Part shown: one piece after another, positions 415-40,267 of the stretch
How positions within the stretch are numbered: position 1 is the stretch's first letter
How the letters are laid out: every line of letters starts with the position of its first letter
Assembly (NCBI GenBank): GCA_016124255.1
Contig: WGOB01000006.1
Span: 1 to 64,000, forward strand
Direction of reading: 5' to 3'
DNA: 64,000 nucleotides
From: Alphaproteobacteria bacterium
GTDB lineage: Bacteria > Pseudomonadota > Alphaproteobacteria > Caulobacterales > Aquidulcibacteraceae
Notes under the pieces: generated by a model
What the model was told of the DNA's origin: nothing
What the model saw: the letters and a program-made list of their open reading frames with translations, nothing else
Databases searched by the model: none
Program-made: the position numbers and the translations under genes

Positions 415-657
415 ATGTCTGATGTCTATGACAAATTAACGTCCTTGCTGCAGGACGTATTCGACGATGACGACATCGTCGCCACGCCGGATCTGGCCGC
501 GGCGGACGTCGACGGCTGGGACAGCCTCGCGCATGTGCGCGTGATCCTGGCGGTGGAGAAGGCGTTCAACGTGAAGTTCAAGGCCGCCGAGATCAACGTC
601 ATGAAGAATGTCGGCGATCTGGCGAACTCGATTTCGGCCAAGCTGGCGGGCGGCTAA
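415..657 (+). CDS. Acyl carrier protein
   Basis: An 80-residue acidic protein with the carrier-protein signature GWDSLAH; Ser37 in DSL is the expected 4'-phosphopantetheine attachment site. The length is normal for a free-standing ACP. The sequence is not that of the fatty-acid-synthesis AcpP, and it lies 72 bp before an FkbH-like gene. FkbH proteins in polyketide pathways load a glyceryl unit from 1,3-bisphosphoglycerate onto a dedicated ACP, so this ACP is probably the cognate carrier. The carried group is inferred. Confidence 0.9.
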   Translation: MSDVYDKLTSLLQDVFDDDDIVATPDLAAADVDGWDSLAHVRVILAVEKAFNVKFKAAEINVMKNVGDLANSISAKLAGG

Positions 658-729
658 AGCGTCATCCAGGGCCGCGCCGGCCCGCGCGAGGACCTTAAGC
701 CGCCATTCGGGAAGCCGCCGTTCGGGGGA

Positions 730-2667
730 ATGCGGGTGACGAGGGATCTCTATGCCGATCTCGCCTGGCTGCTGCCGGCGCCGGAGGATTTCCGGGCGCG
801 GCGGCGCGCGCTCATGGCGGACGACGCGACGCAAGTCGGCGCGGGCGTGCAGGCGCTGGCGCGCCACGCGCTGAACGCCACCCAGCTGACGCAGCTGGCT
901 GAAACGATCGCGGCGGCGCAGGCGCGCGGCGCCGATCTCGCGCCGCTGGCGCCGTTCACGCTGGGACTTGTCGGCAACGGCACGCTCGACCTGATCGCGC
1001 CGGCGCTGGTCGCCAGCGCGGCGCGGCACGGCGTTGCGCTGCGCGTCGTGACCGCGCCGTACGGTCAGGTGATCCAGGAAGCGCTCAATCCGCACTCGGC
1101 GGTGAATGCGGCGAAGCCCGACGCGGTGCTGCTGGCGCTCGATCATCGCGGCGCGCCGCTCTCTGCGGACCTCGCCAGCGCCGAAGCGAGCGTGAAAGAG
1201 GCGATCGGCTACATCAACGCGCTGAAAGAGAACTTCAAGGCGAACGCCGGCGCGCCGTGCATCGTGCAGACGATCGCGGCGCCGGCTGAAGCGCTGTTCG
1301 GCAGTTTCGATCGGCGCCTCGCCGCTGCGCAGCGCGCCGCGATCGACGCGTTCAACCGCGCGCTGGCCTCGGGCGAGACCGGCAGCGACGACATCCTGCT
1401 CGACGTCGCGGGGCTGGCGGAGACGGTGGGTCTCGCGCGCTGGCATTCGCCGAGCGAATGGAATCTGGCGAAGCTGCCGTTCTCGTCCACGTACCTCGCG
1501 CTCTATGCAGACCATGTGGGGCGGCTGATCGGGGCGATGCGCGGCAAGGCGCGCAAGTGCCTCATCCTCGATCTGGACAACACCTGCTGGGGCGGGGTGA
1601 TCGGCGACGACGGCCTCGACGGCATCAGGATCGCGGAAGGCGACGCAGAGGGCGAAGCGTTCCGCGACGTGCAGCGCACCGCGCTTGCGCTGCGCGCGCG
1701 CGGCGTGGTGCTGGCGGTCTCCTCCAAGAACAATGACGAGGTGGCGCGCGCGGCGTTCCGCGAGCATCCCGAGATGATCCTGCGGGAGAGCCACATCGCG
1801 GTCTTCCAAGCGAACTGGAACGACAAGGCCACCAACATCAAGGCGATCGCGGAGGAGCTCAATCTCGGGCTCGATGCGATGGCGTTTCTCGACGACAACC
1901 CGGTGGAGCGGGGGCTGGTGCGCGCGTTCCTGCCGCAGGTGGCCGTGCCGGAGCTGCCGGAGGATCCAGCCCTTTATGCGCGCACGCTGACGGCGGCGGG
2001 ATATTTCGAGGCGATCGCGTTTTCCGAAGAGGATCGCAAACGCGCCGGCTTCTACGAGGACAACGCCAAGCGCGCCGCGCTCGCCAGCGCCGTGGGCAGC
2101 CTCGACGATTATCTCGCCTCGCTCGACATGGAGATCAGCTTTGCGCCGTTCGACCAGAAGGGTCGCGAGCGGATCGCGCAGCTGATCAACAAATCGAACC
2201 AGTTCAATCTCACCACGCGGCGCTACACCGAGGCGGAGGTCGCCGCGTTCGAGGCCGACCCTGCGTGCTTCACCCTCCAGATCCGGCTCGCGGACAAGTT
2301 CGGTGACAACGGGATGATCTCGGTGATCTTGTGCAAGGCGCAGGGCGATGCATGGGAGATCGACACCTGGCTGATGAGCTGCCGCGTGCTCGGACGCAAG
2401 GTGGAGCAGATGGCGCTGCGCGAACTGATGTTGCACGCCCGCGCGCAGGGCGTGGCAAGGCTGATCGGCCGCTACATCCCCACCGCGCGGAACGGGATGG
2501 TGAAGGATCATTACGAGACGCTGGGCTTCGTCAAGCAGGCCGACGGGGCGCGTGCTGGCGAGACGACCTGGGCGATCGCCACGGATGCGGAGACGCCGGC
2601 AGCCGCGCCGATGCGCGTGGTTCGCGTCGGCGCGCTTAACGATGCGCTGCCGCAGGCGGCGGAGTGA
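730..2667 (+). CDS. FkbH-like HAD-IIIC family protein with C-terminal GNAT-like region
   Basis: A 645-residue protein with three parts. Residues about 1-265 form a weakly conserved N-terminal domain. A HAD domain follows, with motif I D281-L-D283-N-T-C-W, a VSSKNN segment and the acidic motif FLDDNP (D388, D389). The C-terminus (about 450-620) resembles an acetyltransferase fold. This is the FkbH architecture; family members dephosphorylate and load a glyceryl group from 1,3-bisphosphoglycerate onto an ACP. The preceding gene is an ACP and the next two are an SGNH hydrolase and an MBOAT, so the loaded group is probably passed across the membrane. The ATG at 730 has a GGGGGA ribosome site just upstream. 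Substrate identity is inference. Confidence 0.88.
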   Translation: MRVTRDLYADLAWLLPAPEDFRARRRALMADDATQVGAGVQALARHALNATQLTQLAETIAAAQARGADLAPLAPFTLGLVGNGTLDLIAPALVASAARHGVALRVVTAPYGQVIQEALNPHSAVNAAKPDAVLLALDHRGAPLSADLASAEASVKEAIGYINALKENFKANAGAPCIVQTIAAPAEALFGSFDRRLAAAQRAAIDAFNRALASGETGSDDILLDVAGLAETVGLARWHSPSEWNLAKLPFSSTYLALYADHVGRLIGAMRGKARKCLILDLDNTCWGGVIGDDGLDGIRIAEGDAEGEAFRDVQRTALALRARGVVLAVSSKNNDEVARAAFREHPEMILRESHIAVFQANWNDKATNIKAIAEELNLGLDAMAFLDDNPVERGLVRAFLPQVAVPELPEDPALYARTLTAAGYFEAIAFSEEDRKRAGFYEDNAKRAALASAVGSLDDYLASLDMEISFAPFDQKGRERIAQLINKSNQFNLTTRRYTEAEVAAFEADPACFTLQIRLADKFGDNGMISVILCKAQGDAWEIDTWLMSCRVLGRKVEQMALRELMLHARAQGVARLIGRYIPTARNGMVKDHYETLGFVKQADGARAGETTWAIATDAETPAAAPMRVVRVGALNDALPQAAE

Positions 2668-2670
2668 GCG

Positions 2671-3807
2671 ATGAGCGAAGACGCGCCCCCGCGCCGGCTG
2701 CCGAAGCGCGATCTTTGGCTCTTGCCGCTCGTCGCGGCGGGCACGTTGGGCGCGCTTGGCGTCGGCGCCGAAATCGGCGCGCGCGTGATCTGGCCCGAGC
2801 AGGACCATTTCCCATGCCTGCGCGCGGATCGCACCAACGGCTCGATGGCGACGCCGAACTGCCGCAGCCGGGTGAAGACGGCTGAAGGGCCGTGGGTGAC
2901 GAACCGTTACAACGAATGCGGCATGCGGGCGACGGGCCCGTGCGAGATCGCCGACCGGCGGCGCCCGCGCATCGTGGTCATGGGATCGTCCACCAGCTGG
3001 GGCTACATGGTGCCGTTCGAACAGACGTGGTCGACGCGGCTGGCGCGCGATCTCACGGAACGGTGCGGCAAGGCCGAGTATGACGTGCAGAGCTTCGTCA
3101 CGTTCGCGGACGTGAACGGCAATGCGCGCATGATCGACGACGCCTTGGCGCTGCAACCCGATCTCGTTGCGTTCGTGATTGCGCCGCTCGATCTGGAACA
3201 GATCGGCGATGGCGGCTTCGTGCCGCCGGAGGCCGCGACGCGCGTTGTGCAGGCGCAGGCGGAGGATGCGCCGGAGAGCCTTGTGGGATGGCTACGCGAA
3301 TTGGTCTCGGAAAGCCGCCTCGGCAAGATCGCGCAGCACTACCTTTACCGCAATCCGGACGTCTACATCCCCGCCTTCCTGACCAACGGCGACAAGGCGG
3401 ACTTCATGCGCGCGCCGCTCTCCGAGCCGTGGCGCGACCGCGTGCAAGCGGTCGATGATGCGCTGAGCTATTACAACGAGCGCTTCGAAGAAGCCGGCGT
3501 GCCGATGATGCTGGTCTATACGCCGCAGCAGGCGCAGGCGGTGCTGATCTCGGAAGACGGCGCGCTGCCGCCGAACGTGGATCCGACGGAATTGCCGGAC
3601 ACGCTGGAGCGCGTCGCGGAAGCGGACGGCGTCATCTATGCGGACGCCAGCGACGCGTTCGAGCAGCTCGAAGACGCCGGGGACATGTTCTACAATGCCG
3701 ACGGGCATTTGAACGGGGCGGGCCACCAGCTCATCGCGGAAGCAGCCAAGGATGCGCTGGTGGACGCCATGGGCCCCGCTCCGCTTTGCCCCGGCGGGAC
3801 GCGATGA
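2671..3807 (+). CDS. Membrane-anchored SGNH/GDSL-type hydrolase or acyltransferase
   Basis: A 378-residue protein. A basic N-terminus is followed by one hydrophobic segment (about residues 14-38), so the rest should lie outside the cytoplasmic membrane. The block I motif is GSST (residues 105-108; Ser107 is the likely nucleophile). Near the C-terminus, D344-G-H346-L-N is followed by GH, the D-x-H catalytic pair of SGNH enzymes. It starts 3 bp after the FkbH stop and overlaps the MBOAT gene in an ATGA, so the three are translationally coupled. Its place beside an MBOAT matches DltD/DltB and AlgX/AlgI pairs, where the SGNH partner handles the acyl group outside the cell. Target polymer unknown. 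Confidence 0.82.
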   Translation: MSEDAPPRRLPKRDLWLLPLVAAGTLGALGVGAEIGARVIWPEQDHFPCLRADRTNGSMATPNCRSRVKTAEGPWVTNRYNECGMRATGPCEIADRRRPRIVVMGSSTSWGYMVPFEQTWSTRLARDLTERCGKAEYDVQSFVTFADVNGNARMIDDALALQPDLVAFVIAPLDLEQIGDGGFVPPEAATRVVQAQAEDAPESLVGWLRELVSESRLGKIAQHYLYRNPDVYIPAFLTNGDKADFMRAPLSEPWRDRVQAVDDALSYYNERFEEAGVPMMLVYTPQQAQAVLISEDGALPPNVDPTELPDTLERVAEADGVIYADASDAFEQLEDAGDMFYNADGHLNGAGHQLIAEAAKDALVDAMGPAPLCPGGTR

Positions 3808-5267
3808 ACGTTCCGTCTTTCGTCTTTCTCGGCTTCGCGATCGCAGGGGCTGTTCTCTATTCTGCGGCCGGGCGGTTCGGCGGGCGCGACGGCATCGTCG
3901 CAAAGCTCGTGCTGCTCGCGCTCAATCTCGCGTTCTTCGCGACGTTCGTTTCGAGCTTCTCCACGCTTGAAGGGTGGATGTCGCTCTTGCCGTACGTGGG
4001 GTTTCTCGTCGCGGGCTATATCGGCGTGAACGCGGTGCGCGGGGGATCGCGCGCGATGTTCGTGGGCTTCATCGCGCTGATCATTTTCGCGTTCTTCTGG
4101 CTGAAGAAGTACACGTTCATCCCGGACGGCATGACGCTGCAGTTCGCGTTCGTCGCGATCGGGCTCTCCTACGTGTTCTTCCGCGTGCTGCACCTCATCA
4201 TCGACGTGGGGCAAGGCGCGATCGAGGAGCGCATCAGCCCCCTCTCCTATCTCAATTACACGCTGAATTTTCCCGCGCTGGTGTCGGGGCCGATCCAATT
4301 CTACCAGGACTACAAGAAGACCGAAGCCGAGCCGGAGAAGCTCGACATCTTCGCACTCTCGTATGCGGCCGAGCGGATCATCGCGGGGCTGTTCAAGGTG
4401 CTGATCGCCTCGGCGCTGCTGCAATTCTGGCAGAAGGGGCTGATCGCGCAGCTGGACGACGCAACCGATCCGATGACGCGAATCGGGCTGATCGCGCTGA
4501 TCGGGGCGATCTATCCGTTCTTCCTTTACGCCAATTTCTCCGGCTACACGGATTTCGTGATCGGCGCGGCGCGGCTCTTCCGGCTCAAACTGCCGGAGAA
4601 CTTCAACAACCCGTTCACGGCGGAGAACTTCATCACCTTCTGGAGCCGGTGGCACATCACGCTCTCGAACTGGCTGAAGACCTACGTCTATACGCCGCTG
4701 CTGATGACGCTGATGCGCCGCATGCCGTCGGCGAAGCTTGAACCGTGGTTCGCCGTTTTCGCGTATTTCGTGACGTTCTTCCTGGTGGGCGCGTGGCATG
4801 GGCAGACCGCGGAATTCCTGTTCTTCGGCGTACTGCAGGGCGCGGGCGTGGCCGGCAACAAGCTCTGGCAGGTCGCGATGCAGGGTTGGCTGACGAAGAA
4901 GGGCTACAGGAAGCTGGCGGGCGACAAGATGTACGAAGCGGCGTCGCGCGGGCTGACGTTCACGTATTTCGCGTTCACGCTGCTCTGGTTCTGGTCCACC
5001 TGGGCGCAGATCGGGGAGTTTGCGAACGCGGAAGGGCTCGGCGGGTTCGCGCTTGCGTGGCTGATCGTCTTCGTTGCGGCGACGCCGGCGCTGGCGCTCT
5101 ACACGTTCGTGCTCAAGAAGGCGCGCGGCGTGCAACTCGCGGGGGATCCCCTCTTCGCCTCGCGCTATGTGCGCACGGCGACGGCCACCGCGATGATCGC
5201 GATCACGCTGGGCAGCACCGTGCTGCTCGCCGCGCCGGCGCCGGACATCGTCTACAAGAATTTCTGA
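3804..5267 (+). CDS. MBOAT family O-acyltransferase
   Basis: A 487-residue multi-spanning membrane protein. The ATG at 3804 overlaps the upstream stop as ATGA; an upstream ATG at 3786 is possible but less likely. The MBOAT hallmarks are both present: FWSRWHITLSNWL with His284, and the invariant catalytic histidine in VGAWHG (His332). About ten hydrophobic segments are spread along the chain. The family includes DltB (D-alanylation of teichoic acids) and AlgI (alginate acetylation), which move an acyl group from a cytoplasmic donor to an extracytoplasmic acceptor. With an ACP and a loading enzyme in the same operon, the DltB-like use of a carrier protein is the more natural model. Confidence 0.93.
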   Translation: MNVPSFVFLGFAIAGAVLYSAAGRFGGRDGIVAKLVLLALNLAFFATFVSSFSTLEGWMSLLPYVGFLVAGYIGVNAVRGGSRAMFVGFIALIIFAFFWLKKYTFIPDGMTLQFAFVAIGLSYVFFRVLHLIIDVGQGAIEERISPLSYLNYTLNFPALVSGPIQFYQDYKKTEAEPEKLDIFALSYAAERIIAGLFKVLIASALLQFWQKGLIAQLDDATDPMTRIGLIALIGAIYPFFLYANFSGYTDFVIGAARLFRLKLPENFNNPFTAENFITFWSRWHITLSNWLKTYVYTPLLMTLMRRMPSAKLEPWFAVFAYFVTFFLVGAWHGQTAEFLFFGVLQGAGVAGNKLWQVAMQGWLTKKGYRKLAGDKMYEAASRGLTFTYFAFTLLWFWSTWAQIGEFANAEGLGGFALAWLIVFVAATPALALYTFVLKKARGVQLAGDPLFASRYVRTATATAMIAITLGSTVLLAAPAPDIVYKNF

Positions 5268-37605: not shown

Positions 37606-38541
37606 CTAACCCACCGGCGGGCGCGGTCGGTTCGACCACGTCCAGTCCTGGCGCGCAGTCCATTCGCGCATCGTTTCCAGCTTGAGCGGGATGCGATCGA
37701 GCATCGCATCGACGTTCACTTCGAACGGGCGCGTGGGCGCGGTGTTGTTGTAGACGTAGAAATCGCCAATGCGCTGTGCGGTGACGTCCTTCATCTCCTT
37801 CGTCATCGCGTCGCCGAAACCGTCCGCCAGCACGCGGCCGAATTCATGCGGCGTGAGCGCCTTGTACGGGATCGGCCTGCCGATGGCGGCGGAGAGCGCG
37901 GCGGCGACATCGGGCGGCGTCAGCCGCTCGGGCCCGCCGATGTTCATCCAGGCGCCTTCCATGTCCGGCCGCTCGAGCGAGGCCAGCATGAAGCGCGCGA
38001 CGTCGTCGAGGCTAATCCAGTTGGCTTCGAGATCGGCGCGCTGGCCGTAGGCGAAGACGCCGTCACGCGCGATCGAGGGGAAGGCGAAATTGGTCAGCAG
38101 GTTGTCCATGAACAGGACCGAGCCGAAGACGGTGCCCGGCGCGCCGGAGCGCCAGAGCGCATTCACGCCGCGCGTGTTTCCTGCGTACGTGCCGGGATCG
38201 CCGGGGCGATCGGGGATCCAGGACGAGGTGTTCCAGACGACGCGCTTGACGCCGGCTTCAGCCGCGGCGCGGCCGACGCGCCCGATCCACTGATCGCGGT
38301 CCGGCGCGGACAGCGGATGGGTGTAGAACACATAATCCGCCCCGCGCACGGCGTTCGCGACAGATGCTGCGTCGGCTGCATCCGCAGGCATGATCTCGAC
38401 TTCGTCATACCGCTCGCCGAGGAACGGATCGGCGCGCCGCGACAACGCGCGCACGCGATAGCCGGCGCCAAGCGCCTGGCGCACCTGCGCCAGACCTTGG
38501 CGCCCGGAGGCGCCGAAGATCGCGATCAGCGGTCGCGTCAT
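37606..38541 (-). CDS. NmrA-like NAD(P)-binding protein
   Basis: A 311-residue atypical SDR. IFGASGRQGLAQVRQALG at the start is the glycine-rich motif GxxGxxG of the NmrA/isoflavone-reductase group; there is no NNAG, and a YxxxK pair is not evident. The middle part WNTSSWIPDRPGDPGTY and FMDNLLTNFAFPSIARDGVF fits the group. The ATG at 38541 overlaps the upstream VOC gene stop. It may be a reductase or a redox sensor. Confidence 0.85.
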   Translation of the reverse strand: MTRPLIAIFGASGRQGLAQVRQALGAGYRVRALSRRADPFLGERYDEVEIMPADAADAASVANAVRGADYVFYTHPLSAPDRDQWIGRVGRAAAEAGVKRVVWNTSSWIPDRPGDPGTYAGNTRGVNALWRSGAPGTVFGSVLFMDNLLTNFAFPSIARDGVFAYGQRADLEANWISLDDVARFMLASLERPDMEGAWMNIGGPERLTPPDVAAALSAAIGRPIPYKALTPHEFGRVLADGFGDAMTKEMKDVTAQRIGDFYVYNNTAPTRPFEVNVDAMLDRIPLKLETMREWTARQDWTWSNRPRPPVG

Positions 38542-39062
38542 CCGAGTTTGCGGACGCCGTCGCGGCCGTCCCACTTGCGCGCGGCTTCGCGCATCATTGC
38601 AAAAAGCTCGTGTGAACCGGGACCGGGCTTCAGGATCTCCACCATGGTCCCGTCGCCGCCGCCGGCGTCGACATACATCACCTCGCCGCCGCCGGGGACC
38701 TTGCCCTCCTGCAGCACGTCCATCCCGTCCACAGCAGCGCGTGCGGCGCCGAAATCGTCCGTGAGCAGACAGACGTGGTGGAGCCCTTCCTTGCCGGCGT
38801 CGCGCCAGGCTTTGTAGATCGAGGGCGCATCATTGTGCTGGCGGATGAGCTCGATCTGGAGATCGCCCCAATAAGCGATGGCGATGGAGAAATCGATGTC
38901 GCTCGGCGCGCCACGGTAGCGCACGTCGTCCAGCTTCACGTGCTCGATCAGAAAGAACGGGCCAACGCCCATCGTCCTGGTCCAAAACGTGAGCGCCGCA
39001 TCAAAGTCGCGCGGCACGAAGGCGTTCTGCATGACAGGGCCGAGCGCGGCGATCGTGTTCAC
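38538..39062 (-). CDS. VOC/glyoxalase superfamily protein
   Basis: A 174-residue protein starting at GTG 39062 within a GTGA overlap with the Rieske gene. The two beta-alpha-beta-beta-beta units are visible: VMQNAFVPRDFDAALTFWTRTMGVGPFF and LHHVCLLTDDFGAARAAVD. The end VMYVDAGGGDGTMVEILKPGPG is a metal-site strand of the superfamily. Members are ring-cleavage dioxygenases, epimerases or lyases; this type (glyoxalase-like, with LIEH as a possible ligand) is often found beside Rieske enzymes. Reaction unassigned. Confidence 0.85.
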   Translation of the reverse strand: MNTIAALGPVMQNAFVPRDFDAALTFWTRTMGVGPFFLIEHVKLDDVRYRGAPSDIDFSIAIAYWGDLQIELIRQHNDAPSIYKAWRDAGKEGLHHVCLLTDDFGAARAAVDGMDVLQEGKVPGGGEVMYVDAGGGDGTMVEILKPGPGSHELFAMMREAARKWDGRDGVRKLG

Positions 39063-40267
39063 GCGCTGAGCCCCAGCGCGCGCGCGATGGCGCGGTGGGT
39101 GTTCTGGAGCGCCACCTCCTGGCGGCCATAGACGACTGTCGCATCCGGCGGCAGCAGCGTGAGATTGCGCCAGCCTTCGGCGGCAACGACATAATCTTCG
39201 CTGGCGACGACGTGGGCGACGCCATCGTAGGCGGCCTCCACTTCGGCGCGATGTTCCGACGAGCGCACGCCGCCATAGGCGTAGACAGTTTTGTGGGTCA
39301 CAGTCTCGCCCGGAGTTTCGCCGGGGAAGTGACGGAACGTGGTGAGATACATCTTGCCCGGCGTGATCGAGCCGGCGAACAGGATCGTGTTCGGAAAGAG
39401 ATAATGGATGCCGGAAGGCTCGGAGCGGACGTCCCACTCGCTCTCGGGCGTATCGACCATCGCCTCCAGCGCCCGCTCGGCGAAGCCGACGCGATGGTGC
39501 GGATCGAAATGATCGTAGATCACCACGTCGTTGCGCGTGTTCGGTGAGATCGTCTGCGGATGCAGCGTCGCGAAATGATAGCCTTCGCCGTAGGTGTCGA
39601 GCGCATATTTCCAGTTCGCGGCGACGGGCAGCGCGCCGGCCTTCACGCGCTCGCATTGCTTGAGGTCCATCACCTCCAGCACGTCGCCGAAGGCGCCGAG
39701 GTGCGCGTCGAGATCGAGCGTGGCGCCGGGCGTCGCGATCACGAACACGAGGCCGTGCCGCTCATCGCAGGGATACTCGATCAAATGATCGCGGCCCTGC
39801 ATTTCGCCGTCGAACGCTTTGCTCTGCGGCGCCGCGATCAACTTGCCTTCGTTGGAGTATGTCCAGCCGTGGAACCAGCAGGTGAAGCGATTGGCCTTGC
39901 CTTCGCGCTCGTGCGTCAGCGCCGCGCCGCGATGGCGGCACACATTGAGAAAAGCGCGAACGCGCCCGTCCTTCGCTCGCGTCACCAGGATCGGCACGCC
40001 GGTTTCATCGAACAGGCGGAAGGCGCCGGGCTCGGCGAGATCGGTGGAGAGACATACAAGCAACGGCGTCTCGCGGAAGAGCTTCTGGCGCTCAAGCGCA
40101 TGGCGCGCGGGATCGGTATAGACGCTGACCGGATTGCTCATGGGCGCGTCGGCCAGGTCGCTCGTCTTGTTCTTCAGGTGGGTGATGGCGCGGCGGAGGT
40201 ACTCGCGGCGGTGGGCGCGCGTCTCGGCGGCGTGGTCGCGCGCGGACGCTTCGGGACGGGCGCTCAT
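39059..40267 (-). CDS. Rieske-type aromatic-ring-hydroxylating oxygenase, alpha subunit
   Basis: A 402-residue oxygenase. The Rieske [2Fe-2S] ligands are C110-x-H112 and C130-x2-H133; the mononuclear iron site follows in YGEGYHFATLH (His231, His236). The start at 40267 overlaps the E1-beta stop in ATGA; a shorter start at 40141 is possible. No beta subunit, ferredoxin or reductase gene is near, so it is probably a homotrimer using electron carriers from elsewhere. Such enzymes hydroxylate or demethylate rings and alicyclic compounds. Confidence 0.93.
   Translation of the reverse strand: MSARPEASARDHAAETRAHRREYLRRAITHLKNKTSDLADAPMSNPVSVYTDPARHALERQKLFRETPLLVCLSTDLAEPGAFRLFDETGVPILVTRAKDGRVRAFLNVCRHRGAALTHEREGKANRFTCWFHGWTYSNEGKLIAAPQSKAFDGEMQGRDHLIEYPCDERHGLVFVIATPGATLDLDAHLGAFGDVLEVMDLKQCERVKAGALPVAANWKYALDTYGEGYHFATLHPQTISPNTRNDVVIYDHFDPHHRVGFAERALEAMVDTPESEWDVRSEPSGIHYLFPNTILFAGSITPGKMYLTTFRHFPGETPGETVTHKTVYAYGGVRSSEHRAEVEAAYDGVAHVVASEDYVVAAEGWRNLTLLPPDATVVYGRQEVALQNTHRAIARALGLSA

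Follow-up and report, generated by a model that had tools for sequence, protein, structure and literature searches.

The beginning of a 64,000-nucleotide stretch of DNA from an alphaproteobacterium of the Aquidulcibacteraceae (positions 1 to 64,000 of contig WGOB01000006.1, assembly GCA_016124255.1; hereafter the window) carries a four-gene operon that probably, at a rough estimate of 0.7, encodes a carrier-protein-dependent envelope acylation system, in which glyceryl from 1,3-bisphosphoglycerate would be transferred to an envelope or exported polysaccharide. The genes form a single operon on the + strand and encode, in series, an acyl carrier protein (ACP; 80 residues), an FkbH-type protein (645 residues), an SGNH protein (378 residues), and a membrane-bound O-acyltransferase (MBOAT; 487 residues). 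The ACP and FkbH genes are separated by 72 bp and the FkbH and SGNH genes by 3 bp, and the SGNH and MBOAT genes overlap by 4 bp (ATGA). An earlier note had proposed these genes as a contiguous, Dlt-like set with FkbH in the place of the ligase; its coordinates and gene names proved exact, FkbH, SGNH, and MBOAT scored above curated cut-offs, and the 3-bp gap and the ATGA overlap were confirmed. The evidence consists of the genes themselves, their co-occurrence across phyla, the conservation of catalytic and shuttle residues, and the predicted folds of the SGNH and MBOAT proteins. The features of the operon are as follows.

415 to 657, + strand: ACP with a proposed DltC-like role, just under the PF00550 cut-off; Ser37 at 523 to 525 in the motif WDSLAHVRL
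730 to 2667, + strand: FkbH-type HAD-IIIC protein with a C-terminal acyl-transfer part, proposed glyceryl-ACP synthase (TIGR01686)
1570 to 1578 and 2380 to 2382, + strand: FkbH residues D281/D283 and Cys551, respectively (alignment)
2671 to 3807, + strand: putatively membrane-anchored SGNH acyltransferase with a DltD/PatB/AlgX-like role (PF13472, PF16822, AlphaFold model)
2989 to 2991 and 3706 to 3708, + strand: Ser107 and His346 of the SGNH protein, whose N-terminal helix spans residues 12 to 40
3804 to 5267, + strand: MBOAT O-acyltransferase with a proposed DltB/PatA-like role (PF03062); His284 at 4653 to 4655, His332 at 4797 to 4799
5247 to 5264, + strand: putative acyl-shuttle motif IVYKNF at the MBOAT C terminus, with Tyr484 and Phe487 (conservation; motif as defined in the part of PMC12148441 drawn on here)

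The proposed course of the reaction draws on family knowledge for the identity of the glyceryl group, the polymer acceptor, the direction of transfer, and each chemical step. FkbH would accept D-glycerate from 1,3-bisphosphoglycerate, an acyl phosphate, with Cys551 as the probable site of attachment; its HAD domain would strip the phosphate, and the glyceryl group would then be passed to the phosphopantetheine of the ACP. Charging of this kind would proceed without an adenylation step, unlike that by DltA. The charged ACP would dock at the MBOAT on its cytoplasmic face, and the MBOAT would hand the acyl group over to its own Tyr484 (xxYxxF) on the periplasmic side; Ser107 of the SGNH protein would then pick it up, and an envelope or exported polysaccharide would be esterified at a hydroxyl.

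On the donor side, FkbH matches the NCBIfam model TIGR01686 with 301.7 bits (cut-off 146.65; E 5.6e-90) and PDB entry 3slr with an E value of 4.8e-56, and it is the single FkbH that a genome-wide search at E 1e-3 revealed in the source genome. It thereby combines the marks of the FkbH family, i.e., a TIGR01686 score above cut-off, the HAD motifs, and the invariant Cys. Residues D281, D283, S332, K366, D388, and C551 are invariant in all 85 FkbH rows having a residue there, the window included; we infer that Cys551, which lies within an SCRVL stretch, is the acyl carrier of the enzyme. The same residues are kept in two cassette controls from Methylosinus (L123), where FkbH is adjoined by a FabH-like gene, an ACP, an E2-like gene, and a polyketide synthase (PKS), and from Streptomyces (L125), where it is accompanied by an ACP and two dehydrogenases. 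These layouts are the tetronate glycerate-utilisation operon and the methoxymalonyl cassette, respectively, both of which begin with glyceryl-ACP from 1,3-bisphosphoglycerate in the account given in the part of PMC7489565 drawn on here. That FkbH stands in the ligase's place is supported by these shared catalytic residues, and none of the four genes has a ligase match in Pfam or NCBIfam. The ACP scores 20.6 bits against PF00550 (cut-off 20.8) and remains under the cut-offs of the NCBIfam ACP and DltC models (TIGR01688, 18.9 bits versus 52.35); its WDS phosphopantetheine site is present, with W35 and S37 kept in all 73 aligned ACPs, the window included.

The shuttle motif on the MBOAT is the key new point of the analysis. 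Tyr484 and Phe487 at its C terminus are found in all 69 MBOATs reaching those columns (74 aligned), and a separate set from Sphingomonas retains the shuttle Tyr in 9/9 proteins and the final Phe in 7/9, with Tyr in the other two. The ending IVYKNF fits the motif FXYXXF of DltX and PatA except at the first position, where Ile stands for Phe. According to the part of the PatA study that is drawn on here, the Tyr of FXYXXF becomes acylated, the motif resides on DltX in Dlt systems or on the MBOAT C terminus in Gram-negative pairs, and MBOAT-SGNH pathways of the PatA kind operate without a carrier protein (PMC12148441). Since xxYxxF is fused to the MBOAT C terminus, a separate DltX would not be needed. 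An IVYKNF ending with an ACP and its loader encoded upstream means that the donor side of Dlt appears to be mixed with the shuttle side of Pat, and the presence of an ACP gene makes acyl-ACP the suggested donor of the MBOAT.

The relationship of the MBOAT to DltB is evident in both sequence and predicted fold. The protein scores 81.4 bits against PF03062 (cut-off 27) and 176.7 bits (E 8e-52) against the DltB model TIGR04091, which is below the cut-off of 375, and His284 and His332 are conserved in 70/71 and 71/71 rows, respectively. In an AlphaFold2 model built from 43 sequences (pLDDT 93.0, the last three residues being poor), the closest solved structure is DltB, with an E value of 3.0e-13 and a TM score of 0.80 on the target. 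DltC is described in the part of PMC11035591 drawn on here as contacting DltB via the residues Ser+1 and Ser+4 and a salt bridge at Ser+5. Ser+1 and Ser+4 are hydrophobic in the ACP of the window, like the DltC positions that touch DltB, and a hydrophobic contact of this type may have been kept between ACP and MBOAT.

The SGNH protein exceeds the cut-offs of PF13472 (33.2 bits versus 32.9) and of the ALGX model PF16822 (31.1 versus 26.5) and has no match to Pfam DltD. Residues G105, S107, and H346 are present in all 38 SGNH proteins of its sequence type. Its AlphaFold2 model (35 sequences, pLDDT 91.3) has an SGNH fold and a helix at residues 12 to 40, which can be read from the model as a membrane anchor. 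Among solved folds, that of the crocagin biosynthesis protein CgnD comes nearest (8a2n; Z 19.2 over 244 residues, 12% identity), with GDSL esterases well behind it, and DltD, PatB, and AlgX are absent among the fold matches listed.

That the four genes belong together is indicated by their recurrence. The main set comprised 80 FkbH loci in named genomes, the best 80 of 164 relatives, whose genes were taken from our own gene calls, labelled with hidden Markov models, and counted within 5.5 kb of FkbH. An MBOAT is present in 69 of these 80 loci, an ACP likewise in 69, an SGNH protein (three sequence types were distinguished) in 57, and all three in 49; in the 50 loci that extend 5 kb or more in each direction, the respective numbers are 47, 48, 39, and 37. 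These counts are lower bounds, because the gene caller missed some ACPs that were seen by tblastn (L062, L076). The hosts belong to the Pseudomonadota, Acidobacteriota, Vulcanimicrobiota, and Myxococcota. When the set was extended by four plasmid loci to 84, the order of the window (ACP-FkbH-SGNH-MBOAT) was found in 13 loci, MBOAT-SGNH-ACP-MaoC-SDR-FkbH in 7, FkbH-MBOAT-SGNH-ACP-VOC in 6, and SGNH-MBOAT-ACP-FkbH in 5. The gap from SGNH to MBOAT is at most 20 nt in 27/29 cases. The earlier note had named a lack of joint conservation in relatives as a refuting outcome, and this check did not refute its proposal: the genes recur together across phyla and in changing order, with a linkage that becomes partial beyond the closest FkbH relatives.

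A sample of 385 alphaproteobacterial genomes, chosen regardless of neighbours and searched for FkbH at E 1e-60, contained 29 FkbH places, 15 of which had an MBOAT match within 2.3 kb; at FkbH scores of at least 390 bits, this proportion was 11/13. In a genus sample of Sphingomonas, FkbH occurred in 18/201 genomes at 21 places, three of which coincide with loci of the main set that have an MBOAT (L019, L020, L062). The linkage of the four genes is not due to chance, and FkbH-ACP is a donor unit that is mostly, not always, joined to an MBOAT among close relatives. Partner types and tailoring genes are scattered over an FkbH tree, a quick reconstruction with long branches that meet, which was used solely for this purpose. 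Separately, repeated proteins of about 600 residues lie near the MBOAT in three Vulcanimicrobiota loci (L035, L043, L044), where SGNH proteins of the three types were not found; one of these proteins was scanned and has NHL repeats.

Many operons contain additional genes that would act on the acyl group. A VOC gene, whose product resembles methylmalonyl-CoA epimerase, an acyl-thioester enzyme, with a score below that model's cut-off, lies inside the operon in 18/84 loci. A MaoC dehydratase, an SDR, or a MaoC-SDR fusion is present in 20/84, and a methyltransferase in 4/84, the latter recurring together with VOC and MBOAT in Sphingomonas (L135, L136, L138). VOC and MaoC/SDR never share an operon (hypergeometric P 0.0038, a value that ignores shared ancestry). 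On a glyceryl thioester, VOC could invert C2, MaoC plus SDR could remove water and reduce the product to lactyl, and the methyltransferase could O-methylate, which suggests L-glyceryl, lactyl, and O-methylglyceryl versions of the system. It can be argued from the presence of tailoring genes that the ACP retains the acyl group for a time sufficient for editing and that the hydroxyls of this group matter.

The same variants provide the argument for a first alternative, namely that the machine is the one proposed here and the acyl group another, either because another three-carbon hydroxyacid is loaded or because glyceryl is epimerised, made lactyl, or O-methylated on the ACP in many genomes. The mutual exclusion of VOC and MaoC/SDR and the four methyltransferase operons would fit this view. 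However, the P value disregards common descent, and the window operon has no VOC, MaoC, SDR, or methyltransferase gene, so its product should be plain D-glyceryl. A different acyl group is considered unlikely.

The acceptor has to be approached through genomic context. Some relatives sit among glycosyltransferases, a Wzx-type gene, and GH16 genes, which suggests an exopolysaccharide, and acylation of envelope polymers is the described role of MBOAT-SGNH pairs in the part of PMC12148441 drawn on here. A second alternative regards the operon as a small biosynthetic cluster and has a membrane lipid or a secreted small molecule, instead of a polysaccharide, as the acceptor. FkbH is indeed best known from polyketide and peptide pathways, and in Paroceanicella (L099, 9585 to 19150) the set ACP-FkbH-methyltransferase-VOC, together with one hypothetical gene, is directly followed downstream by mprF and a gene for a lysyl-phosphatidylglycerol hydrolase, so that a lipid acceptor at this locus is conceivable. 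However, no PKS or nonribosomal peptide synthetase gene was seen beside the window operon, several variants are found among glycosyltransferase and Wzx-type genes, and the combination of MBOAT, SGNH protein, and shuttle Tyr is the described envelope-polymer layout (PMC12148441, same part). A lipid or small molecule is rated as an improbable acceptor.

Two Sphingomonas loci without an MBOAT differ in their setting: at L130 (5425 to 11526), ACP-FkbH is flanked by a PF02397 sugar transferase on one side and a GT2 gene on the other, and at L139 (9737 to 10438), FkbH lies beside a weak, sub-cut-off match to a hexapeptide transferase. This context may point to a use of the same acyl group by a cytoplasmic route. 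In Sinorhizobium meliloti (L102, 7900 to 22016), VOC-MBOAT-ACP-FkbH is located about 4 kb from genes whose annotations name an ABC transporter, the polysaccharide export protein RkpR, and capsular polysaccharide biosynthesis.

Several observations weigh against the proposed glyceryl transfer to a polysaccharide. No glycan gene was detected among the scanned neighbours of the operon in the window, in Sphingomonas trueperi, in a Burkholderia, or in L077, a Caulobacteraceae metagenome-assembled genome that carries the nearest FkbH relative; this speaks for a lipid or small-molecule acceptor, or else the polymer to be acylated would be synthesised elsewhere, and two sugar-transferase genes (PF02397) are located on other contigs of the window genome (C43, C74). 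An SGNH protein was not recognised in 23/80 loci, partly owing to contig ends and divergent families. The distribution is patchy, with FkbH in 0/3 sampled genomes of the window's genus. The salt bridge between E40 of DltC and R317 of DltB is lost, the Ser+5 position being R42 in 64/73 ACPs. Position 313 of the MBOAT varies (Glu in 19 and Gln in 12 of 74 rows, the rest being other residues or gaps), and a co-variation of ACP and MBOAT at this site is not claimed, since the position is too variable.

Finally, 14 of the 29 FkbH places in the class sample have no MBOAT nearby, and the 18 further Sphingomonas places (L128 to L145) are divided into nine with and nine without an adjoining MBOAT. The latter figure would fit an operon made of two unrelated neighbouring pairs, with FkbH-ACP serving another use and MBOAT-SGNH being an ordinary acetyl-CoA-dependent O-acetyltransferase, and an acyl-CoA donor is assumed for the non-Dlt MBOAT-SGNH pairs that have been studied to date (PMC12148441, in the part drawn on here). 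However, an accidental neighbourhood would hardly recur in 69 of 80 loci, in four phyla and in at least 10 gene orders, and the three SGNH types alternate while FkbH, ACP, and MBOAT stay. This explanation is regarded as very improbable, and the carrier-dependent glyceryl transfer to a polysaccharide remains the preferred reading.

The 5′ end of the window is the first base of its contig (source genome 3.34 Mb, 97 contigs), and the following feature precedes the ACP gene.

1 to 138, − strand: fragment of an NAD-dependent epimerase, 46 residues, cut by the contig start

The earlier note had pointed to a nucleotide-sugar gene on the opposite strand, and an epimerase is indeed located there, although as a fragment at the contig edge; its reading frame is incomplete because the window begins where the contig begins, and the rest was not found at other contig edges with PF01370. 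There is no sign that it belongs to the acylation operon, because no glycan gene adjoins the operon in the nearest relatives scanned. The long antisense open reading frames, e.g., 436 to 3156 on the − strand, are taken as by-products of the high G+C content. Ten other window proteins were scanned, from part of the window, and included no glycosyltransferase; they are efflux, amino-acid, or catabolic enzymes or remained unmatched. A protein of 372 residues at 38538 to 39656 (− strand) has a Glyoxalase_4 domain at residues 210 to 322 and is possibly hydroxyphenylpyruvate-dioxygenase-like and unrelated to the VOC genes of the operons.

Taken further, these results could point to a widespread, modular surface acylation of diderm bacteria that leads from 1,3-bisphosphoglycerate via an FkbH-charged carrier to a second carrier-dependent kind of MBOAT, with exchangeable tailoring to L-glyceryl, lactyl, or O-methylglyceryl; this generalization, which could also explain the L-glyceryl of gellan, is tentative and rather doubtful in its full extent. 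If it is true, the acyl group would be taken from an intermediate of glycolysis, with no ATP spent separately on its activation, so that surface decoration would be tied to central metabolism. Genes of the module would also become candidates for the addition of glyceryl, lactyl, and methylglyceryl to bacterial polysaccharides, and one such route, that to the glyceryl of gellan, could be tested. Native gellan exopolysaccharide bears L-glyceryl and acetyl groups, and the part of PMC9737242 drawn on here states a glyceryltransferase activity without a gene. A literature search likewise found no named gene for this transfer, and the relevant parts of two papers on sphingomonad polysaccharide clusters with acyltransferases do not mention FkbH or ACP (PMC5399355, PMC11340318). 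The set FkbH-ACP-VOC-MBOAT would be a natural candidate for making this L-glyceryl group.

No description of an FkbH-charged MBOAT-SGNH acylation system was found in a literature search that had most subscription journals outside its reach; the earlier note likewise knew of none. FkbH and MBOAT have been published together for cyanobacterial peptides; in the part of that literature drawn on here, FkbH takes the role of a loading domain, and the MBOAT, a separate enzyme, has a sugar or some other group as its target, which is a different thing. The AlmEFG system of Vibrio cholerae resembles the window operon in bringing a carrier-protein-borne acyl group onto a surface molecule of a Gram-negative bacterium; it differs in the adenylating AlmE, in the use of glycine, and in a lipid A acyltransferase that is no MBOAT. 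With the tetronate and methoxymalonyl pathways, the operon shares FkbH, a stand-alone ACP, and the invariant residues, glyceryl-ACP being their product (PMC7489565, in the part drawn on here), whereas FabH-like, E2-like, dehydrogenase, and PKS genes are missing and MBOAT and SGNH genes take their place.

The separate MBOAT and putatively membrane-anchored SGNH protein, the FXYXXF-like C terminus, and the catalytic His are features in common with PatA/PatB and AlgI/AlgJ/AlgX. Both of these systems are interpreted as carrier-free and dependent on acyl-CoA (PMC12148441, as above), whereas here an ACP and its loader are part of the operon. The SGNH protein passes the ALGX cut-off, and no alginate gene was present among the ten scanned proteins, which cover part of the window. 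The likeness to Dlt lies in a carrier protein that would be charged in the cytoplasm, an MBOAT akin to DltB in sequence and fold, an SGNH partner, and a shuttle Tyr motif; judged by alignment, the parts of the Dlt mechanism, i.e., ACP, catalytic His of the MBOAT, shuttle Tyr, and Ser/His of the SGNH protein, appear present and conserved. The Dlt-like roles that had been assigned at the outset stand insofar as the parts recur together and the MBOAT is nearest to DltB, but the operon is a Dlt/Pat hybrid with its own shuttle motif and not a plain Dlt copy. FkbH replaces the adenylating ligase DltA, the motif is fused to the MBOAT, the intergenic distances leave no room for DltX, D-alanine is not expected, and the hosts are diderm. 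Since DltA is absent, the matches to the DltB and DltC models fail to reach the cut-offs, and the fused motif stands in for DltX, the operon is Dlt-like in outline, yet not a member of Dlt; it is best described as an MBOAT-SGNH pair whose donor would be of a new kind. The part of a review drawn on here names acyl-CoA as the donor of all MBOATs but DltB (PMC10213974), and the operon, if interpreted correctly, would represent a second and broadly distributed exception.

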